Both the position numbers and the translations under genes were made by a program. 42,858 nt of DNA from an uncultured Eubacteriales bacterium (GTDB lineage Bacteria; Bacillota; Clostridia; Christensenellales; CAG-138). The DNA is taken from assembly GCA_902765005.1 (NCBI GenBank), contig CACWYB010000016.1:1-42858 (forward strand), given 5' to 3'. The notes beneath the pieces are model-generated. The model was given only the letters and a program-made list of their open reading frames with translations, was not told the DNA's origin and did no database searches. Positions 13,416 through 15,482 of this stretch are shown here, one piece after another (position 1 is the first letter of the stretch; each line of letters opens with the position of its first letter).

Positions 13416-14291
13416 CTACAGCTGCGCGCTCTCCAGGGAGCTTTCGCCCATGATGTCCCGGGTCAGGTGCTCGTCGGTGACGGCGGCCCGGGTCAAAACC
13501 ATCTTCCCCGCCTCCACGGAGTGGGTGAGCCACACGTTGCCGCCGATGATCGAATCGCTGCCGATCCGGGTCTTCCCGCCCAAGATGGTGGCGCCGGCGT
13601 AGATGACCACCCGATCCCCAATGTCCGGGTGCCGCTTGATCCCCTTCACCGGGTTCCCGTCGGGCCCCAGCTCAAAGCTCTTGGCGCCCAAGGTCACATG
13701 CTGATACAGCTTCACGTGCTTTCCGATGGTGGTGGTCTCACCGATGACCACGCCGGTGCCGTGGTCGATGAAGAAGGAATCCCCGATGGCGGCCCCCGGG
13801 TGAATGTCGATGCCCGTGCTCCTGTGGGCATACTCCGTCATCATCCGGGGCAGCAGGGGCACCTTCTCCAAATACAGCACGTGGGCCAGCCGATAGGCGG
13901 CGATGGCGGGAAACGCCGGGTAGCAGAGGATGATCTCCGCCACGCTGGCGGCGGCCGGGTCCCCCTCATAGGCGGCCGTCAGGTCCGTTTGCAGCTGCCG
14001 GTGCACCTCGGGCAGGGCGGCCAGCAGCGCCTCCGCCACCGCCTCCGGCGCCCGGTCCTCCGGCAGCACCCGCTTCAGGCACGCAAACAGCAGGTCCATT
14101 GCCTCCCCCAGGGCCGTCTCCCGGGAGATGGGCGCGGGGGCGTACTGGGGGAACATGGCCGTGGTCAGCCAGTCCGTCAGCTGCTCCGTCTGCTTCCGAA
14201 ACCCCTGCAGGTTCCCGTCAGCCGGGCGCTCTTCATGTTGGGAAAGGGCCCGGGTGACCTCAAAGAAACGCCGTCTCGTGGATTCGTTCAT
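13416..14291 (-). CDS. cysE: serine O-acetyltransferase
   Basis: This 291-residue CysE acetylates L-serine with acetyl-CoA to O-acetylserine, the substrate of the adjacent cysteine synthase. The N-terminal half is helical; the C-terminal half carries left-handed beta-helix hexapeptide repeats. Active-site and family motifs are plain: [59 protein letters not shown] and [11 protein letters not shown]. It is of the longer clostridial/EpsC-like form rather than the form of about 215 residues found in Bacillus. It follows cysK by 2 bases and belongs to the same transcript, so the leader attenuator upstream of cysK should control both. The three-hairpin repeat follows the stop. Confidence 0.93.
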
Positions 14292-14293
14292 GC

Positions 14294-15226
14294 TCAGTTA
14301 CCGAAAAGGGCGGTGGACAGGTACCGATCCCCGGTGTCGGGGAGCAGGGCAACAATGGTTTTGCCGGCGTTCTCGGGGCGCTTGGCAAGCTGCAGGGCCG
14401 CCCAGAGAGCCGCCCCGGAGCTGATGCCCACCAGCACGCCTTCGCTGCGGCCCATGCGCCGGCCGGCCAGCAGGGCGTCCTCGTTGGTCACGGGGATGAC
14501 CTCGTCATAGATCGCCGTGTTCAGCACCTCCGGCACGAACCCCGCGCCGATGCCCTGGATCATGTGGGCCCCGGCTTTGCCCTCCGAGAGGACGGGGGAG
14601 GAGGCGGGCTCCACGGCCACCACCTTCACCTGGGGGTTCTGCGCCTTCAGGTATTCCCCCACGCCGGTCACGGTGCCACCCGTGCCTACGCCGGCCACGA
14701 AGATGTCCACCTTGCCCTCCGTGTCCCGCCAGATCTCGGGGCCTGTGGTGGCCCTGTGGGCGGCGGGGTTGGCCGGGTTCACGAACTGACCGGGGATGAA
14801 GGCGTTGGGGATCTCCTTGGCCAGCTCATCGGCCTTGGCGATGGCGCCCTTCATGCCCTTGGCACCCTCGGTGAGCACCAGCTCCGCGCCGTAGGCCTTC
14901 ATGAGCTGTCGCCGCTCCACGCTCATGGTTTCGGGCATGACGATGATGATCCGATACCCCCTTGCCGCCGCCACGGAGGCAAGGCCGATGCCCGTGTTGC
15001 CGGAGGTGGGCTCGATGATGACGGAGCCCTTTTGCAGCAGGCCCTTTGCCTCGGCGTCGTCGAGCATGGCCTTGGCGATCCGGTCCTTCACGGAGCCGGC
15101 GGGATTGAAGTATTCCAGCTTTACCAGGACGGTGGCCTGCAGGCCCTCCTCCTTTTCGATGTTCTGTATCTCTAACAGGGGCGTGTTGCCGATGAGCTCA
15201 TCGGCGGAAGAATAGATGCGGGACAT
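14294..15226 (-). CDS. cysK: cysteine synthase A (O-acetylserine sulfhydrylase)
   Basis: This 310-residue PLP enzyme makes L-cysteine from O-acetylserine and sulfide. The PLP-binding Lys is K47 in NPAGSVKDR. Other family marks are the substrate loop [10 protein letters not shown], the phosphate-binding [12 protein letters not shown] and the cofactor-ring Ser region GISSGAA. Length is normal for CysK. The ATG is preceded by AGGAGG with good spacing. It is first in a cysK-cysE operon with a promoter at 15454-15482, a Cys-rich leader ORF at 15337-15417 and an intrinsic terminator at 15279-15309 in between. All point to control by cysteine supply. Confidence 0.95.
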
Positions 15227-15278: not shown

Positions 15279-15309
15279 AAAAAACGGAGAGCCCCATCAG
15301 GGCCCTCCG
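15279..15309 (-). terminator. attenuator terminator of the cysKE leader
   Basis: On the minus strand a 10-bp stem (5' arm CGGAGGGCCC, 3' arm GGGCTCTCCG, with one G-U pair) is followed by T6. It lies 27 bases after the leader-peptide stop and 53 bases before cysK. The 3' arm plus the first T (GCTCTCCGT) is perfectly complementary over 9 bases to the leader peptide's Shine-Dalgarno region at 15422-15430. Confidence 0.85.
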
Positions 15310-15336
15310 ACATGATCCAAATCGATCGCGGGAACT

Positions 15337-15417
15337 CTACATGGGTACAGCAAAGGCCGACTGCCGAGCGCAGCACTCGTTACAACAACAGATGCAGTTG
15401 AAGGTCGCCTTTGTCAT
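15337..15417 (-). CDS. cysteine-rich leader peptide of the cysKE operon
   Basis: This is a 26-codon ORF too short for routine gene calling. It has a clear ribosome-binding site (CGGAGAG, 7 bases before the ATG at 15417) and lies about 30 bases after the predicted transcription start. Residues 6-17 read FNCICCCNECCA: six Cys in nine positions (8, 10, 11, 12, 15, 16), encoded by both TGC and TGT. The stop is TAG at 15337-15339, and an intrinsic terminator follows before cysK. Promoter, translatable Cys-rich peptide, terminator, then Cys biosynthesis genes is the logic of amino-acid attenuation: cysteine shortage should stall ribosomes on the Cys codons. An alternative is a functional metal-binding peptide, but the position argues for a leader. 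Confidence 0.8.
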   Translation of the reverse strand: MTKATFNCICCCNECCARQSAFAVPM

Positions 15418-15432
15418 GGTAGCTCTCCGTTT

Positions 15433-15447
15433 GTTTCCTATCGGTTT
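15433..15447 (-). promoter_or_regulatory. possible CymR-like operator at the cysK start point
   Basis: Minus strand AAACCGATAGGAAAC covers the predicted +1 region and contains the imperfect palindrome core CCnATnGG. As I recall it, this resembles sites of the Rrf2-family cysteine repressor CymR in Firmicutes. It is a single weak match. Confidence 0.25.
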
Positions 15448-15453
15448 AGTATG

Positions 15454-15482
15454 TTTATACTATATGCCCGCCGCCTTGTCAA
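15454..15482 (-). promoter_or_regulatory. sigma-A promoter of the cysKE operon
   Basis: Minus strand consensus TTGACA (15477-15482), 17-base spacer, TATAAA (15454-15459). Confidence 0.85.

Follow-up and report, generated by a model that had tools for sequence, protein, structure and literature searches.

A probable cysteine-responsive leader-peptide attenuator upstream of cysK-cysE in uncultured Clostridia

The attenuators of the trp and his operons of Escherichia coli follow a logic of four strands (1 to 4), in which a ribosome at the leader stop codon masks strand 2. Polycysteine attenuators are also known from mycobacteria. Reports on comparable leaders exist for several lineages. Cysteine leader peptides have been described upstream of the cys and cbs operons of Mycobacterium, Propionibacterium, and Bifidobacterium (PMC1262725). 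In the Rhodobacterales, the uORFC-8-2 motif upstream of cysS contains a short upstream ORF with tandem Cys codons, for which ribosome-mediated attenuation has been proposed (PMC8632094). Histidine leader peptides have been reported upstream of hisS*/hisZ in Bacilli (PMC2965389). In Clostridium perfringens, the genes under cysteine-responsive T-boxes include cysK-cysE, and the same report states that other mechanisms may exist where clostridial T-boxes are missing (PMC2940859). A search of the open-licence literature by titles and abstract openings found no leader-peptide attenuator of cysK in Clostridia among the matches listed.

The locus described here comes from the genome of an uncultured Eubacteriales bacterium (2.38 Mb in 45 contigs, 77% complete). 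The window, that is, the whole stretch of 42,858 nucleotides that was analysed, carries on its minus strand a promoter, a good ribosome-binding site (RBS), a 26-codon ORF with six Cys codons, a terminator with its T6 run, and cysK-cysE, all at the places given in a first-pass annotation of the DNA (Table 1). Three features of an attenuator are present, namely a short Cys-rich ORF preceded by an RBS, a conserved intrinsic terminator between this ORF and the first gene, and a mutually exclusive antiterminator, the 5' strand of which would be masked by a ribosome at the stop codon. The first-pass annotation had proposed a Cys-codon leader-peptide attenuator of cysK-cysE in a Firmicute, and the present analysis supports that proposal: most probably, transcription of cysK-cysE is controlled by ribosome-mediated attenuation in this leader, with charged tRNA-Cys as the signal. 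The leader had no Rfam match at the gathering threshold. The sole Rfam match within the window is an FMN riboswitch (RF00050, 83.3 bits, 13200-13088, minus strand) located 3' of the serine acetyltransferase gene; beyond it lies an ECF-transporter-S-like gene (13005-12286, with a weak NCBIfam match below the cut-off), and the two perhaps serve riboflavin uptake. The serine acetyltransferase scored 159.2 against the cysE model, under that model's cut-off of 210.65. The window also contains three adjoining lipoprotein-like paralogues (17100-15505, 19375-17816, and 20803-19385, minus strand), two of which were searched against NCBIfam without a match, and a protein of 1425 residues (12081-7804, minus strand) with Cys-containing repeats of the CTEPGHGAGSVC type and a DUF11-type repeat match.

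Table 1. Parts of the cysteine leader region and the genes that follow it, in window coordinates; (-) denotes the minus strand.
Feature	Position	Remarks
Cysteine leader region before cysK-cysE	15482-15279 (-)	Order: promoter, RBS, 26-codon ORF, terminator, T6
-35 hexamer TTGACA	15477..15482 (-)	Same in 10/10 aligned genus members
-10 hexamer TATAAA	15454..15459 (-)	17 bp spacer from -35
ACTAAACCGATAGGA block, directly 3' of -10	15436..15450 (-)	Candidate operator; invariant in 10/10 genus members
Leader Shine-Dalgarno (SD) ACGGAGAGC	15422-15430 (-)	
Strand 1, leader SD plus start codon (AACGGAGAGCTACCATG)	15415..15431 (-)	Strong pairing with strand 4 in the genus; in relatives, pairing with strand 2 (weak in the window)
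Leader peptide ORF MTKATFNCICCCNECCARQSAFAVPM	15337..15417 (-)	26 codons, stop TAG
Cys cluster, codons 8-16	15370..15396 (-)	Six Cys: residues 8, 10, 11, 12, 15, 16
Core UGU UGU UGU		Codons 10-12 of the window leader
Predicted hairpin enclosing the Cys codons, 5' arm	15403..15412 (-)	End of codon 2 to codon 5
Predicted hairpin enclosing the Cys codons, 3' arm	15352..15361 (-)	
Strand 2, antiterminator 5' strand CCCATGTAGAGTTCCCG	15329..15345 (-)	Leader stop codon inside
Strand 3, terminator 5' arm, loop, and first 3'-arm bases (CGGAGGGCCCTGATGGG)	15293..15309 (-)	Partner of strand 2
Strand 4, terminator 3' arm GGGGCTCTCCG	15285..15295 (-)	
Terminator CGGAGGGCCCTGATGGGGCTCTCCG	15309-15285 (-)	11 predicted pairs, -20.6 kcal/mol including U tract
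Terminator U tract T6	15279..15284 (-)	
cysK, cysteine synthase A	14294..15226 (-)	NCBIfam TIGR01139, 461.6 bits, cut-off 350.95
Serine O-acetyltransferase (cysE / EpsC type)	13416..14291 (-)	EpsC model NF041874, 153.8 bits, cut-off 150

The leader recurs in relatives of the source organism. A blastn search with the leader region matched 10 of the 103 family genomes, all from the window's genus (10 of its 12 genomes, the window's own included), and the leader ORF was kept in all ten. Nine of these leaders are full length (L002-L010); L011 is cut by a contig end and, being incomplete, was excluded from the genus leader alignment. The genus peptides read MRKATFNCICCCTVxxGRLVxPM or similar, with the first Cys changed to Tyr in L009, and there is hardly any variation across the genus in the -10 region, ACTAAACCGATAGGA, most of the SD, AUCUGUUGUUGUA, CCCAUGUAGAGUUCCCG, or the terminator. 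Conservation among relatives had been named in the first-pass annotation as a check, and within the genus the Cys codons, the Pro-Met-stop end, and the SD are all kept. In the wider family, 82 CysK matches were obtained in 76 of the 103 genomes, and the upstream regions were examined for 70. To count as a Cys leader, an ORF of 8-60 residues had to begin with ATG behind an SD and to contain a CC as well as three or more Cys in nine. Such an ORF was found upstream of cysK in 23 of these 70 regions (9 from the window's genus), while the antisense control gave 0/70 and five shuffle sets gave 0-1; three of the 70 regions (L115, L127, and L130) have no start codon at the assumed gene start, and L127 is counted in the 23. 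Among the named cysK loci, 11 of 80 had such a leader (two being genus members), with 1 in antisense and 0 in shuffles. A second genus (g22) contributed 13 clear leaders, for which MxNRxRFxCCCxCFAMPVCVSG is the typical form; all of them have a terminator or a hairpin resembling one. Four further cysK loci (L027, L031, L032, and L061) have the same layout, with peptides like xxMMCCDxRCExRVxFVIPI. The genome of L031 contains a second Cys leader (L215, 1421-1480 on the minus strand and upstream) before an O-acetylhomoserine/O-acetylserine sulfhydrylase gene, which passes TIGR01326 with 579.3 bits (cut-off 495.1). Since the Cys-rich frame recurs together with a terminator, these bacteria probably sense cysteine by the progress of the ribosome along the frame.

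Other Cys-containing ORFs were seen as well. A short one lies close before cysK in L027, L028, and L031 (ERCC) and in L032 (RCRCR), with none seen in the window, and it may be a translational leader. Other Cys-rich leader ORFs precede cysK in L085, L067, and L074, with different terminators or weak hairpins, and are perhaps of independent origin. The set of 27 leaders used below is without L127, L028, L066, L067, and L074, in which the start is uncertain or the terminator is absent or weak. L026 and L029 were also left out, being genus members already present under other names. A covariance model of the genus leaders, run over 396 genomes of the order, recovered five genus members and one weak match in G375 (L025, E = 0.0014), which was rejected as having no Cys leader. 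A profile of 17 peptides, run over an equal number of genomes of the order, matched 85 of them at E up to 1, with only the five genus matches below E = 0.001; among the 25 further loci that it gave, the 16 inspected (L181-L188, L191, L194-L197, L199, L202, and L204) were judged to be chance matches. Over 391 genomes of the class at E 0.001, only the window's own genome was matched by this profile, which is insensitive and misses the known cysK leader of G077. The pattern CCDxxCE matched 5 of 150 genomes related to that of L031; besides the two leaders of the L031 genome, the other four matches were unrelated sequence.

Cys codons in seven ORFs of the window are UGC in 65 cases and UGU in 6, and the six of the window leader comprise three UGU, which form the core, and three UGC. 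In the 28 leaders compared, UGU accounts for 54 of the 56 codons at the first two core Cys positions, and the Pro codon within strand 2 is CCC in 27, the remaining leader (L085) being without Pro. In 17 aligned peptides, two Cys and the Pro are invariant. Judged from these sequences, which are related and so not independent, the choice of UGU and CCC is a nucleotide constraint beyond that on the peptide.

The terminator has a competitor within the leader. The first-pass annotation had proposed the SD itself as the antiterminator, and that the SD is the only one is not supported: a separate strand, CCCAUGUAGAGUUCCCG, which runs across the leader stop codon, can pair with the 5' arm and loop of the terminator at a predicted -20.8 kcal/mol, compared with -20.6 kcal/mol for the terminator. 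This hairpin of strands 2 and 3 (2:3) has 16 to 20 pairs and -19.1 to -22.0 kcal/mol in all nine full-length genus leaders. The terminator stem (3:4) is paired in 98.7% of cells, with double changes in five of eight pairs and a covariation score equalled by 0/500 shuffles. The outer helix of 2:3 (CCC plus two), aligned in 19 diverse leaders of the 28, is paired in 89.5% of cells, and two of its five pairs have double changes. Shuffles scored as high in cells paired in 15/500, in double-change cells in 7/500, and in covariation score in 13/500; in the number of double-change pairs (75/500) and in pair types (172/500) the helix was not better than shuffles. Slid versions of the helix were all lower in cells paired and in score. 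From these alignments the covariation of the outer helix appears moderate, and it is undercounted in L143, L146, and L150 because MAFFT misplaces the loop there. In a register set by eye for 27 leaders, the base after CCC and its loop partner are A-U in 13, G-C in 10, G-U in 2 (L148 and L215), and mismatched in 2 (L027 and L061); as this variable base pairs with the terminator loop, it is free of the 3:4 constraint. Duplex shuffle tests covered 18 of the 27 leaders. The 2:3 duplex of the window alone was not better than shuffles (p = 0.236), 6 of the 18 representatives reached p < 0.05, and the combined value over ten was 1e-5, the combined p-values here and below not being independent because five of the ten representatives belong to one genus. 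Swapping strands between lineages supported 3:4 and, less so, the pairing of strands 1 and 2 (1:2); it did not support 2:3, for which the exchange caused little or no weakening.

The conserved parts, the competing helices, the covariation of the terminator, and the moderate covariation of the 2:3 outer helix are features of the compared sequences. For the stalling, the footprints, the response to cysteine, and the role of strand 1, we infer the following course. When cysteine is plentiful, the ribosome would clear the UGU codons, halt at UAG, and cover strand 2, whereupon strands 3 and 4 would make the terminator and transcription would end. When cysteine is short, the ribosome would stall on the UGU run at codons 10-12, and strand 2 would be free on leaving the polymerase; it would then pair with strand 3 and block the terminator, and cysK-cysE would be transcribed. 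In the window's genus, the leader SD (strand 1) could then take strand 4 (1:4) and so fix the read-through fold. Strand 2 is a possible partner of the SD in related lineages, where a leader that is not being translated would therefore enter the terminating fold.

Predicted folds were compared for several ribosome states, with the footprints masked (assumed, after textbook values, to reach from -14 to +15 of the P site) and the RNA folded at the length it has immediately before strand 4 appears. When a ribosome stood at the stop codon, 2:3 exceeded 0.5 in 2 of 27 leaders, and the number was again 2 when the start was occupied too. With a stall at the Cys codons and a free SD the number was 15, with 1:2 competing; with a stall and an initiating ribosome it was 26; with a ribosome on the start codon alone, 24; and in naked RNA, where 1:2 averages 0.88, 14. 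Because the start-codon ribosome alone gives 24/27, these folds separate a ribosome at the stop codon from a free strand 2, and not stalling itself. As modelled, the contrast between a covered and a free strand 2 agrees with classical attenuation, and the need for an occupied SD in antitermination is a prediction. In full-length folds at equilibrium the terminator prevails in most states; antitermination would therefore have to be kinetic, and whole-leader equilibrium folding, dominated by the terminator, says little on it.

Several other explanations have to be weighed against the proposed attenuator, and two of them concern strand 1. According to the first-pass annotation, the SD itself would be the antiterminator: continuous initiation would cover it in ample cysteine, and a stall would free it, block initiation, and let it capture the terminator 3' arm. 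The 9-base complementarity on which this was built has no mismatch and is part of a longer one; the best duplex comes to -22.9 kcal/mol, at p = 0.002, which is the lowest value attainable when the SD region is shuffled 500 times with dinucleotides preserved. Within the genus, 1:4 is the strongest duplex among the alternatives (-23.5 in several members), at p = 0.002 in 4/4 representatives, and the minimum-energy fold of the window holds it together with 2:3. Elsewhere the pairing is weaker, not absent: of the 14 representatives from outside the genus, five reach p < 0.05 (L032 0.002, L061 0.01, L119, L143, and L132), with combined values of 2e-7 over ten representatives and 7e-6 over nine without the genus. 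However, 1:2 is stabler than 1:4 in 13 of these 14, the longer strand-2 segment favouring 1:2, and in the commonest type of the second genus (L124, L129, L132, and L134) 1:2 reaches -22.1 to -28.8 (p 0.002-0.018), with 1:4 at background in L124, L129, and L134. Some 1:4 complementarity would be expected as a by-product, GGAG being common to strands 1 and 3, each of which pairs with strand 2. Strand 4 adjoins strand 3 across a 3-nt loop, so that a competitor located about 120 nt upstream would be expected to come too late unless strand 3 is already taken. The SD region of L009 and L010 has A in place of a G, which costs one 1:4 pair and turns a 1:2 G-U into A-U. In full-length equilibrium folds, moreover, 1:4 occurs mainly with the ribosome at the stop codon (at least 0.90 in 7/9 genus leaders; window 0.62), and once the ribosome stands at the first core Cys codon it drops below 0.05, to 0.03 or less, in 5/9 (window 0.42, L109 0.90, and L112 0.66). 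The model would require the opposite, except if ample cysteine keeps the SD covered at all times, a condition that the annotation had itself stated. These predicted folds argue against 1:4 as the main switch, though not in every member, and the SD as the antiterminator is rather unlikely; the pairing is not dismissed, because within the genus it equals the terminator stem in strength. It is conceivable, and is put forward tentatively, that the RBS pairs instead with strand 2, and that antitermination needs two ribosomes at once, the first stalled one ribosome length downstream and the other on the start codon, where it bars strand 1 from strand 2. The 1:2 duplex was at p < 0.05 in 10 of 18 representatives (8 of 14 outside the genus; not the window), with combined values of 9e-6 over ten and 5e-5 without the genus. 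In all but one of the 27 leaders the core CC starts at codon 9-11, and the predicted 2:3 fold is commoner with stall and initiation than with the stall alone (26 vs 15 leaders). Under the assumed footprint, strand 1 would not itself be covered by a ribosome at codons 10-12. On the other hand, 1:2 is weak in the window (-12.6, p = 0.38), although it reaches -18.8 (p = 0.016) in L108 of the same genus; initiation without a stall already gives nearly the same number of folds, the codon spacing may be simply inherited, and the footprint sizes are textbook values. In the more general form of this idea, for which the odds are likewise well below even, the leader's own RBS would be a working switch strand, paired with the antiterminator strand or, in the genus, with the terminator arm, and would take two inputs, namely stalling at UGU codons that lie roughly a ribosome's length from the start codon, and whether that codon is occupied by a second ribosome.

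It is improbable that an uncharacterised T-box, another ligand-binding RNA, or a repressor is in control and the ORF incidental. Such control is suggested by the T-box of cysK-cysE in C. perfringens (PMC2940859), by the invariance of ACTAAACCGATAGGA after the -10 hexamer, and by one Rrf2-family gene in the window genome, near a NifS-type cysteine desulfurase gene; against it stand the leader's lack of an Rfam match and the retention of the Cys codons, the rare UGU choice, and the leader end while the remaining peptide varies. A T-box covariance model had no match upstream of the window cysK, nor in 20 further cysK loci. That ACTAAACCGATAGGA is the same in 10/10 genus members means that a repressor may act as well as the attenuator, and as a predicted operator it makes a second control possible. 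Words like GATAGGAA/AATAGGAA stand 3' of the -10 in L027, L031, L061, and L215, and none were seen in the second-genus promoters inspected; in the window genome ACTAAACCGATAGGA has no other site with fewer than 3 mismatches, and the Rrf2-family gene falls short of the cut-off with the IscR model as well as with the CymR model. Least probable of all, with very little in its favour, is a functional Cys-rich small protein, e.g., a metal binder. The conserved peptide with its CCC would fit one, but the C-terminal half is variable, both in length and in sequence, codon choice is constrained at the nucleotide level (CCC and UGU), and the end of the ORF sits within the antiterminator helix.

The proposed cysteine attenuator can thus be set beside the described systems. 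In the trp and his attenuators of E. coli strand 1 overlaps the control codons, whereas in the window leader the best strand 1 is the SD with the start codon; if the leader RBS is indeed a switch strand, initiation or queueing would be a new input for the textbook mechanism. Attenuation by cysteine leaders is classical and little described in this group, and the leader proposed here is a clostridial variant of it. As Cys and His leaders have already been described, the kind is known, and what is new is the lineage, the combination with this operon, and the strand-1 design. The actinobacterial leaders likewise have a run of Cys codons in a leader peptide ahead of cysteine genes, but in that report the Cys codons sit close to the stop, and a search for a conserved terminator hairpin gave none (PMC1262725), whereas the clostridial leader has an intrinsic terminator and antiterminator, and its core Cys codons are further from the stop. 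The uORFC-8-2 motif resembles the window leader in its tandem Cys codons (there usually 14-15), a stem containing them, and an intrinsic terminator; it differs in belonging to Alphaproteobacteria and to cysS rather than cysK, and in the dominance of UGC there and UGU here; the two are likened by layout (PMC8632094). The His leaders of Bacilli are another case of leader-peptide attenuation in Firmicutes in which a T-box was replaced, although they concern histidine, Bacilli, and hisS paralogues (PMC2965389). The T-box(Cys) of C. perfringens shares with the present locus the operon, the signal of cysteine supply, and premature termination, but there the RNA senses the tRNA directly, without a leader peptide (PMC2940859). 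With cysK-cysE under a proposed codon-stalling attenuator in uncultured, partly gut-derived Clostridia and under a T-box in some clostridia, the comparison is one of sensor replacement.
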